64,000 nucleotides of DNA, taken from Melioribacter sp. GTDB lineage: Bacteria; Bacteroidota; Ignavibacteria; Ignavibacteriales; Melioribacteraceae. Location of the stretch: contig PMDS01000077.1 in the NCBI GenBank assembly GCA_003155655.1, positions 24,877-88,876 on the forward strand. The letters are read 5' to 3'. Below are positions 34,362 to 53,104 of the stretch, piece by piece. The notes beneath the pieces were generated by a model. That model saw only the letters and a program-made list of their open reading frames with translations. It did no database searches and was not told the DNA's origin. Every line of letters begins with the position of its first letter. Position 1 is the stretch's first letter. Both the position numbers and the translations under genes were made by a program.

Positions 34362-34394
34362 TAATGTGCATTCAGCCAATTATTGCCAACTCCG
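34362..34394 (-). repeat. Displaced copy of the polA 3' end (left direct repeat)
   Basis: 33 bases match polA's terminal bases at 35977-36009 at 31 of 33 positions, in the same orientation. Read on the minus strand it still encodes GVGNNWLNAH and a stop; real polA ends GVGNNWLDAH. One mismatch is silent and the other changes Asp to Asn. Similarity ends sharply at the right. With the right copy it flanks the Phd/PIN and VapB/PIN genes, the layout left by integration at a gene 3' end. Confidence 0.85.
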
Positions 34395-34413
34395 TTTTAT
34401 GCCCAGTCATTAA

Positions 34414-34473: not shown

Positions 34474-34713
34474 ATGCATTCTACAGCTAAAGAACTTAGA
34501 TTTAATACAAAAGAACTTCTTGAATCAGTAGCCCGCGGTGAAGAAGTGATAATAACATTCCGGGGAAAACAATGTGCAAAATTAGTCCCTATGAAGCAAT
34601 CTAAAAATAACGCTGAAAAGAACGATGAACTATTCGGTATATGGAAAAACCGGACTGATTTGAAAAATGTTGATTTATACGTTCGTGAACTAAGAAAAGG
34701 GAGGTTCTTATGA
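34474..34713 (+). CDS. Phd/YefM-type antitoxin
   Basis: 79 residues. The N-terminal MHSTAKELRFNTKELLESV and GEEVIITFRGKQCAKLVPM match the Phd/YefM DNA-binding fold that dimerises and represses its own promoter. The C-terminal tail (FGIWKNRTDLKNVDLYVREL) should wrap and block the toxin. The stop overlaps the PIN gene start by four bases, the standard antitoxin-first order. An inverted repeat over the promoter just upstream fits autoregulation. Confidence 0.87.
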   Translation: MHSTAKELRFNTKELLESVARGEEVIITFRGKQCAKLVPMKQSKNNAEKNDELFGIWKNRTDLKNVDLYVRELRKGRFL

Positions 34714-35090
34714 TAATGATAGATACAGATGTTTTAATATGGTACATGAGGGGCAATTCTAAAGTTAAAGAAGTGATTGAAAAGTACAACAATTTTTTTA
34801 TATCGGTAGTTACGTATATGGAATTAGTTCAAGGAATGCGGGATAAGTATGAGCTAATATTATTAAGAGGTGCATTAAGAAAATGGAATGTAAAAATACT
34901 TTTTATAAATGAGGATATTTCGGCTAAAGCAATGTTTTTAGTAGAGCATCATTATCTTAGCGCTTCATTAGTATTGGCAGATGCCCTAATAGCTGCAACA
35001 GCTATTACAAACGGTCTGAAGTTACTTACGGGAAACATTAAGCATTATAAAATAATTAAGAATATTGAACTTGATGGATTCAAACCATAA
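34710..35090 (+). CDS. PIN-domain toxin (VapC-type ribonuclease)
   Basis: 126 residues. The acidic PIN residues are present: Asp in MIDTDVLIWYMRG, Glu in TYMELVQGMRDKYEL, and Asp in LVLADALIAATAI, with a fourth acidic position (usually in the GNxKHF region) replaced by LTGNIKHYKII. VapC enzymes cut tRNA or rRNA to halt growth. The ATG at 34710 has AGGGAGG five bases upstream; 34716 is a second in-frame ATG. It is coupled to the Phd antitoxin by a four-base overlap. Confidence 0.88.
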   Translation: MIMIDTDVLIWYMRGNSKVKEVIEKYNNFFISVVTYMELVQGMRDKYELILLRGALRKWNVKILFINEDISAKAMFLVEHHYLSASLVLADALIAATAITNGLKLLTGNIKHYKIIKNIELDGFKP

Positions 35091-35205
35091 TACAAGAAAA
35101 ACCGTGTATAATCAGCAGTTCAATAAAAGGGTATTTGATCCTGCATCAGCTAAAAAAATAGAGAATGCATTTTGGACTAACCACACTAAAAAACAGCGAG
35201 ACTGA
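35074..35205 (+). CDS. Possible small protein or gene remnant (43 residues)
   Basis: An open frame from an ATG within the end of the PIN gene to a TGA at 35205. It encodes a basic, polar peptide (central part NQQFNKRVFDPASAKKIENA). It has no clear ribosome site and no family I can name. The sequence looks protein-like, without the stop-dense character of the following bases, so it may be a remnant of a gene lost from this island. Chance is possible. Confidence 0.25.
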   Translation: MDSNHNTRKTVYNQQFNKRVFDPASAKKIENAFWTNHTKKQRD

Positions 35206-35248
35206 TGGATTAAAAGCTATACTGTTATTTGCAATTCAAATATATTAG

Positions 35249-35297
35249 TTGATTAATTGTATAGGAATGTGTATAATAACACTATACAATACACATT
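35249..35297 (+). promoter_or_regulatory. Promoter with two interleaved operator-like inverted repeats before vapBC
   Basis: TTGATT (35249-35254), 17 bases, then a perfect TATAAT (35272-35277). Two nine-base perfect inverted repeats interleave over it: ATTGTATAG/CTATACAAT (35256-35264 and 35282-35290) and AATGTGTAT/ATACACATT (35266-35274 and 35289-35297). This is a strong candidate site for VapBC autorepression. The AAAGGAA ribosome site and ATG follow. Confidence 0.75.
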
Positions 35298-35311
35298 AGA
35301 AAGGAAATCAA

Positions 35312-35506
35312 ATGAGAACAAACATTGTAATTGACGATAAATTAATGAATGCTGCTCTTAAAACCTCCGGTCTTTTAACAAAAAAAGATGTCGTGGAGGA
35401 GGCATTAAAGCTCCTTGTACAAGTTAAAAAGCAGAGCAGACTTAAGAAATTACGCGGAAAATTGAAGTGGGAAGGAAATCTTGATGAGATGAGAACAACA
35501 AAATGA
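35312..35506 (+). CDS. vapB: VapB-type antitoxin
   Basis: 64 residues beginning MRTNIVIDDKLMNAALKTSG, with GLLTKKDVVEEALKLLVQ: the ribbon-helix-helix of VapB antitoxins of the DUF2191 kind that pair with PIN toxins. The short C-terminal tail (RKLKWEGNLDEM region) is the toxin-binding part. Its stop overlaps the PIN gene start by four bases. The promoter upstream carries interleaved inverted repeats, so the complex probably represses itself. Confidence 0.88.
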   Translation: MRTNIVIDDKLMNAALKTSGLLTKKDVVEEALKLLVQVKKQSRLKKLRGKLKWEGNLDEMRTTK

Positions 35507-35895
35507 TTCTAGTAGACTCTTCAGTATTCATTGACTACTTCAATGGAAAAAATAATTGGCATACTGATGAATTAAATTCTTTATTAGGTAACGAATTAGT
35601 AATAATTGGAGATTATATATTAGCAGAGGTTTTGCAAGGTTTTAGAAATGATAAGGATTTTAAGTTTGCTAAAGAAATAATGCAATCTTTTCCCTGTTTT
35701 AATATTTGTAATCAAGAATTAGCAATAAAAAGTGCCGGGAATTTCAGATATCTCAGAACAAAAGGAATAACTATTAGAAAGACAGTTGATTTAATAATAG
35801 GAACATTCTGTATCGAAAATGAAATAGAATTATTACACAATGATAAAGATTTTGAATTAATGGGACAGCACTTAAATCTGAAAATTAGAAAATAA
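35503..35895 (+). CDS. vapC: VapC-type PIN-domain toxin
   Basis: 130 residues with PIN acidic residues: Asp in MILVDSSVFIDYFNG (also Asp in FIDYF), Glu in YILAEVLQGFRNDKDF, Asp in KTVDLIIGTFCIEN, and Asp in LLHNDKDFELM. This is a complete four-acid nuclease site, so the toxin is probably active. It lies in a four-base overlap with vapB. The gene ends 80 bases before the polA stop codon, convergent to it, inside the segment bounded by the polA direct repeats. Confidence 0.92.
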   Translation: MILVDSSVFIDYFNGKNNWHTDELNSLLGNELVIIGDYILAEVLQGFRNDKDFKFAKEIMQSFPCFNICNQELAIKSAGNFRYLRTKGITIRKTVDLIIGTFCIENEIELLHNDKDFELMGQHLNLKIRK

Positions 35896-35975
35896 TTTTA
35901 AACACAATCCATACATCATATTATATTTAACGCACTCAATAACTTTATCATACCATTTGATTTTCCCAATTTTAA

Positions 35976-38819
35976 TTAATGCGCATCCAGCCAATTATTG
36001 CCAACTCCGGTCTCCGCAATAACAGGAACATTTACCGGCAGTGCATTTTCCATTAATTTAACAATTAACGGTCTAAGTTCATCAACTTCATCTTTATGGG
36101 CATCAAAAACCAATTCATCATGGACTTGTAAAACCATTTTTGTCTTGGCTTTCTTCTTTTCAAGCATCTTGTGAATTTTTATCATTGCGAGTTTTATCAT
36201 ATCGGCTGCAGAGCCCTGTATTGGCATATTAATAGCCACACGGGCTTCAAACTGCTGTACAACCCTGTTCTTACTGTTTATGTTCCTCAAGTAGCGCCTG
36301 CGACCGTATAAAGTCTCAGCATAGCCCTTTTTCTTTGCGCTGGCAACACAATCATCCATGAATTTTCTAACATTCTTAAACGAGTTAAAATATCCGTCAA
36401 TAATTTCCTTAGCTTCAGACTGAGTAATACCCAATCTTATTTTTAGACCAAATGGACCTAGACCATATAGAATTCCAAAATTAACCTCTTTAGCTTTGCG
36501 CCGCATATCCTGGGTTACATCTTTAGGATCAACTTTGAAGATTAACGCAGCAGTTCTTCTATGTATGTCTTCGCCGGAATTAAATGCTTTGGTTAATGCT
36601 TCATCACCGCAAATGCTTGCCATTATCCTCAATTCAATCTGACTGTAATCTGCAGAAAGTATAACATAATTTTTATCGCGGGGAACGAAAGCTTTTCTAA
36701 TCTCTTTTCCCAATTCAGTTCTAATTGGAATATTTTGAAGATTCGGATCATTACTCGACAATCTTCCTGTTGAAACAGCAGCTTGATTGTAAGACGTATG
36801 CAGTCTTCCGGTTTTAGAGTGAATTAAGTTAGGTAGTGAATCTGCATAAGTAGATTTTAGTTTTGAAACCTGCCTGTAATCTGATATAACATCAATAATT
36901 GGGTGCAATCCTTTAAGTAATTCTAATGATCTTGCATCGGTAGAAAAACCAGTTTTAGTTTTATTAGTTTGAGGTAGCTTTAGTTTTTCAAATAGAATTT
37001 TTTGAAGCTGCTGGGTCGAATTAATATTAAAGTTCTCACCGGCATGCTTAATTATTTCTTTTGAATAGTTATCCAGAAGAATTTGAAGATCATCACTGAA
37101 TGCCTTCAAACTTTTCGTATCTATTCTTATACCGGTACGTTCCATATCTTCAAGAACGGGAACAAGAGGGAATTCAATATCGTAAGCAAGTTTTTCAAGA
37201 TTCTCTTTTTTTAATATCCCCTGGAGCAAGTTGTAAAGTCTGAAAGTAATATCAGCATCCTCACTTGAATAATCAGAAAGCCTGTTGGGGTCAATTTCAA
37301 AGATTTTTTCAGGGGTCTTTTTTGAACCTATTAAGTCAAGAAGAGGAATTGGTTTATAATGCAGGTATTTTTCAGAAAGATCATCCATGCCGTGTTTCTC
37401 GTCAGGATCAATTACGTAACTTGCCAGCATTGTATCAAAATAAAAATTGCGTGTTTCAATTCCAAAAAGTCTTAGAACCCCAATATCATATTTACCATTC
37501 TGACAAACTTTTTTGATCTTTTCATTTTCAAATACCGGTTTGAATATTTTTACAAAATCATCAACCGGCAGCCTGTCGCTTGTATCAAAAGAAAATAATG
37601 TTGAGGATTCCTTTGAGGGATTTGTTGCAACATAGAAAGCTTCTTTGGGTTTCATTGCAAAGGAACACCCTGCAAGATTTAAATTAAGCGTATCAAGTCC
37701 GTCTGTCTCAGTATCAAAAACAAATAAATCACAGGCAGAAAGTTTACTGGCAAGCTCTTTTGCTTCTTTGAATGATAATATCAGTTTGTATTTTACTTTG
37801 CTTTTTTCAAATGAACTAATTTCCTTAACATCAACAATATCTACTGGTTCCTGTACTTCAATTTTTTCAACCTTTGATTCTATTTGTTTCTCGATCCCGG
37901 TTTCTACAAATATTTTCTTTAGTTTGCCTGCAAACGACTTAAATTCAAGTTCACCAAATATTTTTAATAGTTTCTCAATATTTGGGTTATGGAATTTTGC
38001 TTCATCAAAATTCATGTGAAAAGGGGTATCGGTCTTTATTGTTGCCAATTCTTTTGAAAGGAATGCATTTTCCTTATTCTCGGAAAGTTTAGTAACAGTA
38101 CCTGCTTTGCTTATTTGATCCAAATTTTTATAAATATTCTCAAGAGTCTTAAATTGCTGTATTAACGGTACAGCAGTCTTTGGACCTATTCCTGCAACAC
38201 CAGGAATATCATCGCTTGAATCGCCTACAAGCGCCAAATAATCAATCATTTGAATGGGATCAAACCCCATATCTTCGCGAACTTTATTCTCATCAATAAT
38301 TTCAATTTCATCTGTCGATTTTCCCGGTTTTACAACTCTTATATTGGGAGAAATGAGTTGGATGTAATCCTTATCGGGTGTAATGGCATAGCAGTCAAAT
38401 CCTTTCTTTTCTGCTTCTTTAACTGCGGTTCCAATTAAATCATCAGCCTCATAACCCGGAAGGATGTAAAGTGGAATGTTAAATGCTTCAATTATTTCTT
38501 TAATTCTCTGAATCTGAGGAATCATATCTTCCGGCATTGCCTGGCGGGATGATTTGTAATTCTCATACCGTTCATGACGAAACGTTTTTTCTTTGGAATC
38601 AAAACCAACGGCAAGGTATTCAGGCTTTGTATCCTCTATAATTTTAAATAACTGATTTAAGAAACCATAAACAGCAGAAGTTGGTTCTCCGGAAACGGTT
38701 AGCAGTGGTCTTGATATGAAAGCATAATAACCTCTGTAAGCGAGAGCCATTGCATCTATAATTACAAATTTTTTCTTTGGAAGCGATGCTTCCTTAGAAG
38801 GTTTTTTGACTGGTTTCAT
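35976..38819 (-). CDS. polA: DNA polymerase I
   Basis: 947 residues with all three domains. The 5' nuclease occupies about residues 15-300 (FVIIDAMALAYRGYYAF, LPGYEADDLIGT). The 3'-5' proofreading domain is about 340-540 and has intact exo motifs (FDTETDGLD, DTMLASYVIDP, YSSEDADI). The polymerase domain is about 560-947 (ILSADYSQIELRIMA, KAKEVNFGILYGLG, VLQVHDELVFDAH). It fills gaps in repair and replaces Okazaki primers. Its last 33 bases occur again at 34362-34394, beyond the toxin-antitoxin genes that lie downstream of it. Confidence 0.97.
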   Translation of the reverse strand: MKPVKKPSKEASLPKKKFVIIDAMALAYRGYYAFISRPLLTVSGEPTSAVYGFLNQLFKIIEDTKPEYLAVGFDSKEKTFRHERYENYKSSRQAMPEDMIPQIQRIKEIIEAFNIPLYILPGYEADDLIGTAVKEAEKKGFDCYAITPDKDYIQLISPNIRVVKPGKSTDEIEIIDENKVREDMGFDPIQMIDYLALVGDSSDDIPGVAGIGPKTAVPLIQQFKTLENIYKNLDQISKAGTVTKLSENKENAFLSKELATIKTDTPFHMNFDEAKFHNPNIEKLLKIFGELEFKSFAGKLKKIFVETGIEKQIESKVEKIEVQEPVDIVDVKEISSFEKSKVKYKLILSFKEAKELASKLSACDLFVFDTETDGLDTLNLNLAGCSFAMKPKEAFYVATNPSKESSTLFSFDTSDRLPVDDFVKIFKPVFENEKIKKVCQNGKYDIGVLRLFGIETRNFYFDTMLASYVIDPDEKHGMDDLSEKYLHYKPIPLLDLIGSKKTPEKIFEIDPNRLSDYSSEDADITFRLYNLLQGILKKENLEKLAYDIEFPLVPVLEDMERTGIRIDTKSLKAFSDDLQILLDNYSKEIIKHAGENFNINSTQQLQKILFEKLKLPQTNKTKTGFSTDARSLELLKGLHPIIDVISDYRQVSKLKSTYADSLPNLIHSKTGRLHTSYNQAAVSTGRLSSNDPNLQNIPIRTELGKEIRKAFVPRDKNYVILSADYSQIELRIMASICGDEALTKAFNSGEDIHRRTAALIFKVDPKDVTQDMRRKAKEVNFGILYGLGPFGLKIRLGITQSEAKEIIDGYFNSFKNVRKFMDDCVASAKKKGYAETLYGRRRYLRNINSKNRVVQQFEARVAINMPIQGSAADMIKLAMIKIHKMLEKKKAKTKMVLQVHDELVFDAHKDEVDELRPLIVKLMENALPVNVPVIAETGVGNNWLDAH
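35977..36009 (-). repeat. polA 3' end, right direct repeat
   Basis: The final codons of polA and most of its stop codon, matched 31 of 33 by the copy at 34362-34394, giving a repeat period of 1615 bases. If the segment was inserted by site-specific recombination, this would be the junction that restored a functional polA end. Confidence 0.85.
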
Positions 38820-47376: not shown

Positions 47377-47384
47377 TATTTTTA

Positions 47385-47417
47385 AAATAGGGATGGTTTA
47401 AACCATCCCTATTTTTT
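47385..47417 (+). terminator. Terminator after the FadL-type gene
   Basis: A perfect 15-base-pair inverted repeat (arms 47385-47399 and 47400-47414, centred on GGTTTAAACC) runs into a T-run ending at 47417. The A-run on the upstream arm means it could also work on the other strand. Confidence 0.9.
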
Positions 47418-49748: not shown

Positions 49749-50634
49749 AGTTGGCGCTACTGTTGTACTCGGACTGCTAATTTTTTTGTGGGTTCTAGGA
49801 TGGGCAAAAAACTGGACTGTAAACTCGCAAAGAAATGAATTATGGGTAGAATTTAGTTCGGTTGCAGGTCTTGCAATTAATGATCCCGTTACTATCAACG
49901 GTGTACGGAGAGGTTATGTTGAAGATATTATACTGAAAGCCGACAAAGTACAGTGCTTATTGAACATTGACCCTGCTGTTGCCCTTAAAGAGGATTCTAA
50001 ATTTTCTGTTATGATGCTTGATTTAATGGGAGGCAAAAAAGTTGAAGTGTATCCCGGTATTTCTTTGAATGGAATAGATTTTAAAAAATTACAGCAAGGA
50101 CAGTTTCTTGGAGATATAGCTTCTGCAATGGCTATGCTGGGATCTGTACAAAATGATTTGGTGGATGTAATTAAAGATGTTAAGATCTCTCTAAATTCTA
50201 TAAATAAAACTATTGCAGATGAGAAATTTTCTTCTGATCTCAAAATGTCTGTTGCTAATCTAACAGAAATTTCTACAAACCTGAATTTGTTATTAAAGAA
50301 TAACAGTGCAAATCTTACTAAACTTATAAAATCCAGTTCAGAATTAACCACCAACGCTAACGATTTTATTGTTTCAAATAAAGATTCAATTTCGCAAACA
50401 ATTTCAGCAGTAAAAAGCACTTTGAACACTTCGAAAGAATTATTGGCAAAGATCAATGATTTCATGGATAAAACGAACAACAGTCAAAATAACTTTGGAA
50501 AGTTTTTAAATGACAAGGATTTGATGAACGATCTAAAAACTACGATACAGCAGGCAAAGGATCTTACAAAACTGCTTAATGACCAATTAAAGGCAGATGG
50601 GTTCAAAGTTGATGCGCACATAAAGATTTTCTAA
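49720..50634 (+). CDS. MCE (MlaD-like) lipid-transport domain protein
   Basis: 304 residues. An N-terminal anchor helix (about 10-28, VGATVVLGLLIFLWVLGWA) is followed by one MCE domain (about 38-115; SSVAGLAINDPVTINGVRRG). A long helical, Ser/Asn/Lys-rich tail (about 130-300), likely a coiled coil or needle, comes last. MlaD-type proteins hold phospholipids or other hydrophobic molecules between the membranes. The usual MlaE permease and MlaF ATPase genes are not beside it. The upstream small membrane protein is its only close partner. Confidence 0.87.
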   Translation: MKDQKKTEIKVGATVVLGLLIFLWVLGWAKNWTVNSQRNELWVEFSSVAGLAINDPVTINGVRRGYVEDIILKADKVQCLLNIDPAVALKEDSKFSVMMLDLMGGKKVEVYPGISLNGIDFKKLQQGQFLGDIASAMAMLGSVQNDLVDVIKDVKISLNSINKTIADEKFSSDLKMSVANLTEISTNLNLLLKNNSANLTKLIKSSSELTTNANDFIVSNKDSISQTISAVKSTLNTSKELLAKINDFMDKTNNSQNNFGKFLNDKDLMNDLKTTIQQAKDLTKLLNDQLKADGFKVDAHIKIF

Positions 50635-50656
50635 TAAAAAAATTGGTTTCACTCGG

Positions 50657-50680
50657 CTGTCGAGGACCATTCCTCGACAG
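50657..50680. repeat. REP-like hairpin 1
   Basis: A perfect 10-base inverted repeat CTGTCGAGGA/TCCTCGACAG with the four-base loop CCAT. Its top part (AGGACCATTCCT) is nearly the reverse complement of the top of hairpin 2 (AGGAGTGGTCCT). No long T-run follows, so it is not a simple terminator. Confidence 0.8.
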
Positions 50681-50691
50681 AAAATGTTTGT

Positions 50692-50717
50692 GCAGTCAAG
50701 GAGTGGTCCTTGACTGC
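50692..50717. repeat. REP-like hairpin 2
   Basis: An 11-base perfect inverted repeat (arms 50692-50702 and 50707-50717) with loop GTGG, starting 12 bases after hairpin 1 and partly an inverted version of it. Two such elements in opposite orientation recall the paired form of REP sequences. Confidence 0.8.
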
Positions 50718-50735
50718 CTGGAAATAAAATAATTC

Positions 50736-50783
50736 GTAAAGACGGGACCACGCCATAGGCGGGTAAACATGTCCCGTCTTTAC
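50736..50783. repeat. Long REP-like palindrome 3
   Basis: GTAAAGACGGGAC (50736-50748) pairs perfectly with GTCCCGTCTTTAC (50771-50783). The 22-base loop holds a smaller CGCC/GGCG hairpin. The form (GTAAAGACG... CGTCTTTAC) resembles GTAGAGACG-type palindromes common in Bacteroidota and cyanobacteria. It ends 19 bases before the acpS start. Confidence 0.85.
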
Positions 50784-50802
50784 ATGATAAGAATATAGAA
50801 TT

Positions 50803-51180
50803 ATGGTACTTGGAATTGGAATTGACATAATAGAAATTGAACGCATAAAAGAAAGCGTTGATAAATTTGGCGAAAGCTTCCTAAAAAAAATTTACACCCA
50901 GACTGAATTAGATTATTCACTTTCCAGAAAAAGCAAATATCAACATCTTGCGGCGCGTTTTGCGGCTAAAGAAGCCATATATAAAGCGCTTTCCTCCGAT
51001 ACAGATAAAGTTTACAGCTGGCAGGATATTGAAATATATAACGAAGTAAACGGCTTGCCAAAAGTAAAACTTTATGGGCAATTGAAAGATTATCTTGGCA
51101 CTGGCAAAGAATTAAAGATATCAATGAGCCATTCAGAAAATTATGTTACGTGTGTGGCTATAGTTAGTACTAACATATAA
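50803..51180 (+). CDS. acpS: Holo-[acyl-carrier-protein] synthase
   Basis: Transfers 4'-phosphopantetheine from CoA to acyl carrier protein. 125 residues with both family motifs: GIGIDIIEIERI (catalytic Asp) and HLAARFAAKEAIYKAL (Glu and Lys), plus the C-terminal KISMSHSENYVTCVAI. Codon use looks like its neighbours. The bases encoding the last about 30 residues reappear in diverged, frameshifted form at 51755-51837. Unlike in many genomes, it is not next to pyridoxine or alanine racemase genes here. Confidence 0.95.
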   Translation: MVLGIGIDIIEIERIKESVDKFGESFLKKIYTQTELDYSLSRKSKYQHLAARFAAKEAIYKALSSDTDKVYSWQDIEIYNEVNGLPKVKLYGQLKDYLGTGKELKISMSHSENYVTCVAIVSTNI

Positions 51181-51342
51181 CAATAATTCCCCAGTAGATT
51201 CAGTACTTTAGTGCTAGTTTATGGCATGCAATGCTTTAAGGTTCGTATTATGAGATTACTATTAATAGACAAAATATAGATAATATAATTAATCTTGTAC
51301 TTCATTTAAATTTGGTCAACAATGTAATGAGTAAGTATTGAT

Positions 51343-51666
51343 ATGAACATTTTCTTTATAATATTGATTGTCTTTATTGGTTTGATCGGACTATTATTCC
51401 TTTTAAAATTAGTAAGCAATCTATTCCAGAAACCAATTGAACGTTCAGTAGAATATATTTTAAGAAATATGTTAAAAATAAAAGAAGCAAATTATGATAA
51501 TGAATATGAAGAGTTTATTAGTATACCTATAAATGACAAATATTATGAGGGAATTAGAAAATTTTGCATTCAGTTATATGAACATGGGAGTTATGCCAAT
51601 GATGCTTCAGAAAGTGAAAAGAAAATATTTGAAGAATATTTATTAGAATTAAAAAGCCGCTTATAA
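51343..51666 (+). CDS. Small membrane protein of unknown function
   Basis: 107 residues. A strongly hydrophobic N-terminal helix (about 2-24; IILIVFIGLIGLLFLLKLV) is followed by an acidic cytoplasmic-type domain (ISIPINDKYYEGIRKFCIQL). I recognise no family. It lies alone between acpS and a relic of an acpS 3' end, in the only low-density stretch of this half of the window, so it may be an accessory gene acquired with that rearrangement. Confidence 0.5.
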   Translation: MNIFFIILIVFIGLIGLLFLLKLVSNLFQKPIERSVEYILRNMLKIKEANYDNEYEEFISIPINDKYYEGIRKFCIQLYEHGSYANDASESEKKIFEEYLLELKSRL

Positions 51667-51754
51667 ACAACTGCCCAAGACTGACCACCGAAACGATTTG
51701 AAGTAAGCACATTTTTTAAGCCACCTTCTATGGTTCTCAATTCGATTTCATTTT

Positions 51755-51837
51755 AAGATTACCTTGGTATTGATAAAAAATTAAAAATATCCATGAGTCA
51801 CTCTGAATATTATGTAACGCGTGGCGATAGTAAGTAC
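51755..51837 (+). pseudogene. Relic of an acpS 3' end
   Basis: These 83 bases align with 51086-51170 of acpS, about 79 percent identical by hand count, with one two-base gap that shifts the frame. The relic reads DYLGIDKKLKISMSHSEYYV, against DYLGTGKELKISMSHSENYV in acpS. Roughly half of the differences are silent third-position changes, so it comes from a diverged functional gene rather than a recent local copy. The rest of that gene is missing. Confidence 0.8.
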
Positions 51838-51850
51838 GACCCTGCAGTGA

Positions 51851-51946
51851 AATATTTTTGACTTCTGGGAAAGAAGAGGTACTCCTCCAAACAAAACTAA
51901 TCTTGACGCTTGTATCTTAAAGCTTGATGCTAAAGAGGAATACTAA
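51851..51946 (+). other. Open fragment without start, possible gene remnant
   Basis: A 31-codon frame between stops reads ERRGTPPNKTNLDACILKLD in its centre. It has no start codon and no known family. It sits in the 333-base gene-poor gap between the small membrane protein and mnmA, next to the acpS relic, and could be the tail of another lost gene. The rest of the gap shows nothing I can interpret. Confidence 0.25.
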
Positions 51947-52000
51947 ACTTATTTTTTATATTTGTTGTTAGTATAATAAGCTATTTGCAGAAAGGTTCAA

Positions 52001-53104
52001 TTGAACAATAAAAGAGTAATTGTTGCAATGAGCGGCGGAGTAGATTCATCAGTTGCTGCCGCACTGCTTCATAAACAGGGATATGAAGTTATCGGCATAA
52101 CAATGAAAACGTGGGGATTTATGGAAGTTGGCGGCGCGCCAAAGCATGAATCCGGCTGCTGCTCTCTTGATGCTATTTATGACGCAAAAAATGTTGCATC
52201 AGCATTCGGCATCCCGCATTACACGGTCGATTTTACAAAAGCATTTGAAGAGACAGTAATAAATGATTTTGTTGATGAATATCTTAGCGGAAGAACTCCT
52301 AACCCATGTGTTGTATGCAACAGAAAAATTAAATGGGAAGAACTGTTAAAGAAGGCAGATTCTCTTGATGCACAATATGTTGCAACAGGGCATTATGCTA
52401 CAGTAGAATATAATCCCGGAACAAACCGTTATACACTTAAACGATCTTCCGACCCGAAAAAAGACCAGACCTATGCTCTTTGGGGTTTAACTCAGGAAAG
52501 TTTGAGCAGAACAATATTCCCATTAGGCGGGTATACAAAAGAAGAAGTAAGGAAAATGGCCCAGGAGTTTAATTTGAAAACTGCCGCCAAACCTGATAGC
52601 CAGGAAATTTGCTTTGTTGCCGATGATAATTATGAAAGATTTTTAAGAGAGAGAATTCCGGATGTTATTAATGAAGTTAAAGAGGGAGAATTTATCTATC
52701 ACGGAAAAACAGTTGGCAAACATCATGGCATTCCTTTTTATACCGTTGGTCAGAGAAGGGGACTTGGCGTAGCGGCAGGCAAACCTGTATATGTAAAAAA
52801 TATTGATAATATAACTAATGTTGTAGAATTAGGTGATAAAGAAGAATTGTTGGAAAGTGTTTGTTCTGCAAACGAAATAAATTTTGTAAGTACTAATGGT
52901 CTAAGAAAAGGTGACATCGTTTTTTGTAAAATCCGTTATAATGACAAAGCCGATGCTGCAGAAATTGTTGAATCTGCCAATGATAAAATTGAAATAAGAT
53001 TTCTTGAACCCAAAAATGCAATTACTCCCGGGCAATCCCTGGTATTATATGATGAACAAGGCTATGTACTTGCCGGCGGAATCATTCAGAAAAAAACTGA
53101 TTAG
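52001..53104 (+). CDS. mnmA: tRNA-specific 2-thiouridylase MnmA
   Basis: Thiolates U34 of Lys, Glu and Gln tRNAs. 367 residues from a TTG with AAAGG upstream. The PP-loop VAMSGGVDSSVAALLHKQGY binds ATP. Catalytic cysteines are in NPCVVCNRKIKW and DSQEICFV. KRSSDPKKDQTYALWGL and FYTVGQRRGLGV are typical of the central and C-terminal parts. The sequence SGCCSLDAIYDAKNVA fits the bacterial family. It stands alone, with gene-poor gaps on both sides. Confidence 0.95.
   Translation: MNNKRVIVAMSGGVDSSVAAALLHKQGYEVIGITMKTWGFMEVGGAPKHESGCCSLDAIYDAKNVASAFGIPHYTVDFTKAFEETVINDFVDEYLSGRTPNPCVVCNRKIKWEELLKKADSLDAQYVATGHYATVEYNPGTNRYTLKRSSDPKKDQTYALWGLTQESLSRTIFPLGGYTKEEVRKMAQEFNLKTAAKPDSQEICFVADDNYERFLRERIPDVINEVKEGEFIYHGKTVGKHHGIPFYTVGQRRGLGVAAGKPVYVKNIDNITNVVELGDKEELLESVCSANEINFVSTNGLRKGDIVFCKIRYNDKADAAEIVESANDKIEIRFLEPKNAITPGQSLVLYDEQGYVLAGGIIQKKTD

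Follow-up and report, generated by a model that had tools for sequence, protein, structure and literature searches.

A diverged acpS 3' end downstream of the intact gene in a Melioribacter genome: a probable scar of recombination between species

A displaced 3' end of acpS, the essential gene for holo-ACP synthase, lies 569 nt downstream of the intact acpS in a Melioribacter sp. genome, behind an accessory gene for a small membrane protein and just upstream of mnmA. It differs from the intact gene mainly by silent changes, to the extent expected between species, and similar stubs stand behind other genes in this genome and its relatives. The acpS stub is probably a scar of inter-species recombination, in which a donor allele would have come in together with downstream cargo, leaving the end of the other allele in place.

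Results

The acpS locus

The window, a stretch of 64,000 nt from contig PMDS01000077.1 (assembly GCA_003155655.1, positions 24,877 to 88,876), belongs to a 4.6-Mb draft genome of 137 contigs, which was estimated to be 100% complete with 1% contamination. The local gene order is ssb, a small protein gene, an mlaD-like gene, acpS, a 107-aa ORF, the stub, mnmA, an HNH gene and trpS. The intact acpS (50803–51180, plus strand) encodes 125 aa matching Pfam PF01648 (E 4e-18) and AcpS chains in the PDB (E 8e-15), and the nearest named relatives of its product are from Melioribacter, Stygiobacter and other Melioribacteraceae/Ignavibacteria MAGs. Among the genomes compared, which are mostly draft MAGs, acpS is single-copy in nearly all relatives.

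Before acpS (50655–50783) there are perfect or near-perfect inverted repeats, e.g. GTAAAGACGGGAC / GTCCCGTCTTTAC, which resemble small repeat elements. Elsewhere in the window, a perfect 32-nt palindrome between two genes (47384–47415) is probably a terminator or a repeat element, and positions 1–2890 hold three tandem paralogs, one cut at the window edge, whose C-terminal parts are 52–65% identical as proteins.

The preliminary description, made by reading the sequence, had matched positions 51755–51837 to the end of acpS at about 79% with a frameshift. Local alignment (51750–51837; 85 columns, a single 2-nt gap) gave 78.8% identity at E 1e-14 to 1e-16. Its score was 48, and none of 1000 dinucleotide-preserving shuffles scored above 20. 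The homology survived a translated search, as tblastn with AcpS matched the same place at 81% over 21 aa. The stub is longer than was first reported: once the 2-nt deletion near codon 117 is allowed for, the frame reads through VAIVSTTLQ to a TGA at 51847–51849, so the stub retains its own stop codon and consists of about the last 33 codons of acpS plus that stop (51750–51849, plus strand). The homology starts abruptly at about 51748–51750, near acpS codon 94–95. Truncation is one-sided, with the natural stop codon and the natural downstream neighbour both retained.

That neighbour, mnmA (52001–53104, plus strand; PF03054), is the usual gene downstream of acpS within the genus. The spacer between the stub and the mnmA start (51850–52000, plus strand) is 151 nt long, compared with 83–132 nt from acpS to mnmA in the four congeners in which the two genes are directly adjacent. 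Within the spacer, positions 51942–51975 are conserved before mnmA throughout the genus; they include TATATTTG, a putative promoter by its resemblance to the Bacteroidetes type. With the spacing close to that of the congeners and the conserved motif before mnmA present, the stub sits about where an acpS end belongs. No acpS stub was found in the other genomes of the family (79 in all), including before the mnmA of relatives.

Such a layout could also arise if contigs of two co-occurring species had been joined inside acpS during assembly, and the fragmentation of this genome and the MAG origin of most relatives would allow for it. However, the frameshift and an unusual residue of the stub (SEYYVT, with a Y absent in the relatives compared) fit a dead fragment and not the working gene of a second species, several such joints in one genome and two others are not to be expected, and the contamination estimate is low. 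An assembly chimera is an improbable explanation.

Divergence between the stub and the intact gene

Over 29 comparable codons, 12.5 silent and 6.5 replacement changes separate the stub from the intact acpS (pS 0.66, dN 0.10), so that the earlier estimate of about half silent was correct and slightly understated. The silent divergence is on the level of species (0.55–1.0 between the acpS of this genome and those of other species of the genus in the same codons), and the replacement divergence is below that between species in the same codons. When neutral decay since the split was simulated at fixed silent divergence, the median was about 36 replacements compared with the 6.5 observed (P ≤ 0.001); at fixed total divergence, about 6 silent changes were obtained compared with 12.5 (P ≤ 0.002). 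The data agree with models in which the stub spent most of the time since the split as a working gene.

Because the differences are mainly silent and such a pattern is rare under simulated neutral decay, the core of the preliminary description stands, namely that the relic descends from an acpS that diverged under selection and not from a recently decayed copy. Judging from its codons, the stub lineage remained functional for the greater part of its independent history, and the stub would be either an allele from a sister lineage, diverged to the level of species, or an old, long-kept copy, not a recent decayed duplicate. A recent duplication followed by neutral decay of one copy would agree with the sister grouping and the longer relic branch reported below, but it leaves too few replacements for the silent divergence in both simulation designs (P ≤ 0.002) and is hardly credible; a simple decayed duplicate is excluded by the dominance of silent changes.

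Phylogenetic position of the two copies

In the acpS tree that had been suggested beforehand, the stub and the intact gene were sisters (support 98/96; 99/92 on the 3' columns only), with branch lengths of 0.34 for the relic and 0.039 for the intact copy, and separating the two copies was not rejected by the AU test (p 0.17–0.30). The copies do cluster, as those of a recent duplication would, but recency was not borne out, given their species-level silent divergence; the split could have occurred within the lineage or between sister lineages, and is in either case not recent. The tree did not single out the native copy. Every window gene examined is about equally far from all congeners compared, and in the trees of mnmA, hnh and trpS the genome is unplaced within the genus, as an isolated branch. 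As the genome is equidistant from all congeners, with no close relative in the set, native and foreign acpS are not separable. Inside acpS, the 3' part is slightly more divergent than the 5' part, at a ratio (1.15) that lies within the range of other species, and this mosaic check resolved no recombination breakpoint within the gene.

The sister grouping is also what would be expected of a long-lived tandem duplication in the lineage, in which both acpS copies were functional for a long time before the downstream one was truncated. Against it stand the single acpS of nearly every relative and the lack of a stub in the other genomes of the 79. The same history would have to recur for polA, rarA and other genes that are single-copy as a rule, and it leaves the clade switch in the polA of G010, described below, unexplained. 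We consider a long-lived duplication unlikely.

The cargo gene and the acpS-mnmA interval

The segment between acpS and the stub (51181–51747, no strand assigned) is without counterpart behind acpS in any relative compared. The small membrane-protein gene noted there in the preliminary description is confirmed as an ORF of 107 aa (51343–51666, plus strand), with an N-terminal hydrophobic helix and a soluble part. None of the other 78 genomes searched in the family has the protein, and a distant relative (35% over 83 aa) occurs in another family of the class. It matched nothing in Pfam or PHROG, nor any phage, plasmid or viral contig, and an origin from one of the latter three was discarded on this result. 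A decayed copy of mnmA between acpS and the stub was also rejected, the single 29-nt match (51271–51299) being judged chance. No donor was found among the genomes compared.

Congeners in which acpS and mnmA are not adjacent carry unrelated inserts of 1.1–5.4 kb. In loci L034, L038, L041, L044, L045 and L157, the interval ranges from under 0.1 to 5.4 kb and contains toxin-antitoxin, outer-membrane protein, radical SAM and MarC-type genes; among the congeners it is an insertion hotspot without visible recombinases.

Further 3' stubs behind intact genes

The scan for stubs covered about 1.4 Mb (705 kb from this genome, the rest from congeners), with each ORF compared with 8 kb of downstream and upstream DNA; pairs sharing only a C-terminal domain and response-regulator or repeat paralogs were discounted, and stubs were called partly by eye. 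Six further 3'-end stubs were found behind intact genes. One of them, found by the intergenic scan of the window, consists of the last 38 nt of polA (34362–34399, minus strand; 35/38 identical) and lies about 1.58 kb behind the intact gene (DNA polymerase I, 947 aa; 35976–38819, minus strand; PF00476, E 1e-158). Its cargo is two PIN-domain (VapC-like) toxin genes (34474–35895, plus strand; PF01850, E 4e-13 and 2e-7) with small antitoxin-like ORFs (region 34474–35975).

Elsewhere in this genome, stubs on the reverse strand belong to rarA (57 nt after a 540-nt segment, with mainly silent differences; L205 1377–3279, contig C18), an mgtE-like transporter gene (37 nt, only 76 nt downstream; L211 2760–3865) and a HAD acid phosphatase gene (about 145 nt, 71%; L216 12513–14102). 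The relatives contributed two stubs. That of an NFACT-type gene is in G007 (42 nt, with five differences, every one of them silent; L245 44–1761, reverse strand, the ORF being cut at the stretch end), and that of polA is in G010 (about 196–210 nt, 80%, separated from the intact gene by a small CBM48-like one; L173 19178–19905). A hairpin sequence similar to the repeats before acpS occurs in the rarA segment of L205.

The stubs amount to 1–26% of the gene length. Together, the seven 3' stubs show 63.5 silent differences and 43.5 replacements (P 3e-14 when 25% silent is assumed), a P value that is to be read loosely because the stubs were pooled post hoc and that of the phosphatase, taken alone, is not silent-biased (14 silent vs 19 replacement). 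Upstream of housekeeping genes, no 5' stub as convincing as these was seen in the same 1.4 Mb, in a comparison of few cases judged partly by eye, and the 5' matches that were seen resemble response regulators, repeats and phage-type families. This could be because a 5' stub parts the gene from its promoter and would be selected against.

The polA gene of G010

In G010, a sister species whose closer relatives are G005 and G001, the direction of the exchange can be read. The body of its polA is 86–91% identical to that of G005 vs 74–82% to those of G003/G004, in agreement with the species tree; for the last 200 nt, the values are 80% to G005 and 83% to G003/G004. Diagnostic sites place the intact gene with G005/G001 up to nt 2731 and then with G003/G004 at 10/11 sites from 2744 to 2785; the stub agrees with G005/G001 at 11/11 of those sites. 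The tail of the intact gene is therefore from another clade and the stub from the resident clade, which supports, from the pattern of sites, a present gene end that came from outside and a stub that is old. The stub starts abruptly near nt 2632–2646, upstream of the clade switch of the intact gene at 2731–2744. Over nt 2646–2735, the two copies are both of the resident-clade type although they differ from each other, for the most part silently, and more than one exchange is therefore needed. Homologs of the G010 cargo are common in the family, and among the places listed none is near the polA coordinates of its genome.

The foreign tail of the intact G010 polA is a point in favour of an integrative element, which in the case of acpS would have used the 3' end of the gene as its attachment site, supplied a new end and later lost all but one cargo gene. 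An intact gene with a displaced end is the usual trace of such elements, and an attachment-site mechanism predicts short stubs such as those found here, biased to the very 3' end. However, no integrase or recombinase gene was seen among the ORFs of the inserts behind acpS or between genes and stubs, and near-identical attachment repeats are missing: the two acpS ends are 79% identical and a repeat finder returned no direct repeats of at least 12 nt in 50600–52100. RNA families or tRNA genes that could be integration targets were not found nearby. Moreover, the stubs start at different relative places from gene to gene, and at two places in polA, with unrelated cargo each time. An integrative-element scar is for these reasons unlikely.

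Discussion

For acpS, we favour recombination between species. DNA with one acpS allele and a downstream accessory gene, that of the 107-aa membrane protein, would have met a chromosome with the other allele. The first joint could have been made by ordinary homologous recombination in or before a conserved gene; the second would have needed no homology and fallen near codon 95, within the 3' end of the resident acpS. The outcome would be an intact acpS, a new cargo gene and, in their ancestral place before mnmA, the ~33 terminal codons of the other allele. There the stub, freed from selection, could then have gained its 2-nt deletion and a few replacements. The case is built on the homology, the gene order, the silent-dominated divergence, the finding of like stubs at other genes and the change of clade within G010 polA. 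Similarity is lost at about 51748, as a joint without homology would have it, and the G010 polA stub is likewise abrupt. The joining mechanism itself, and the direction at acpS, we infer.

As mlaD-acpS and acpS-mnmA are both ordinary arrangements of the genus, the joint at ~51748 fuses two ordinary haplotypes and could have been formed from either side. By analogy with G010 polA, it is more likely that the stub is the old resident end and the end of the intact acpS the incoming one. At the acpS locus, the mirror image, with a native acpS and orf107 joined to a foreign acpS end and mnmA, would fit equally well.

Against a recombination scar, no donor was found, the bias towards short stubs (1–26%) is not predicted by a randomly placed non-homologous joint, and G010 polA needs more than one step. 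There is an outside chance that small units combining the 3' end of a housekeeping gene with a cargo gene spread between Ignavibacteria species without a recombinase of their own, repeatedly entering conserved genes at their last part, restoring them and leaving behind a readable archive of displaced ends.

Should the pattern hold genome-wide, stub counts would measure gene gain beside conserved genes in uncultured bacteria, and the shortness of the stubs would hint at how the DNA was joined. That a gene has given way to the version of a relative is usually deduced from trees alone. Here the displaced end itself offers silent changes from which to date it and sites that tell its clade, and the newly gained gene lies between it and the intact gene.

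Integrative elements such as e14 in icd, and others in icd or guaA, supply the target gene with a new 3' end. As with these elements, an intact chimeric gene would here be accompanied by the displaced original end; unlike them, the stubs have no recombinase and no common attachment core, and the inserts are very small.

The joints proposed here are those of homology-facilitated illegitimate recombination (HFIR), which is described for bacteria under natural transformation (PMC3240628; see de Vries and Wackernagel 2002, cited by PMC5361080). HFIR combines one homologous with one non-homologous joint and places foreign DNA beside a conserved gene, and a stub of the resident gene may remain. It is known from laboratory transformations and E. 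coli conjugation, whereas here it would be deduced from the anatomy of loci in uncultured bacteria, and HFIR is not known to favour the final few percent of a gene.

Displaced 3' ends of T6SS effector genes, with orphan immunity genes in Vibrio T6SS and Rhs loci, have been attributed to HFIR (PMC5361080). As is proposed for our loci, a new allele arrives with a new downstream gene and the old 3' end is pushed downstream. Those genes encode polymorphic toxins under diversifying selection, in contrast to the housekeeping genes described here, whose product is hardly changed. Finally, in xenologous gene displacement (PMC1274311), an ortholog from another lineage replaces the resident gene, as is proposed for acpS; there the event is inferred from trees, whereas here the displaced gene would have left a piece of itself behind.
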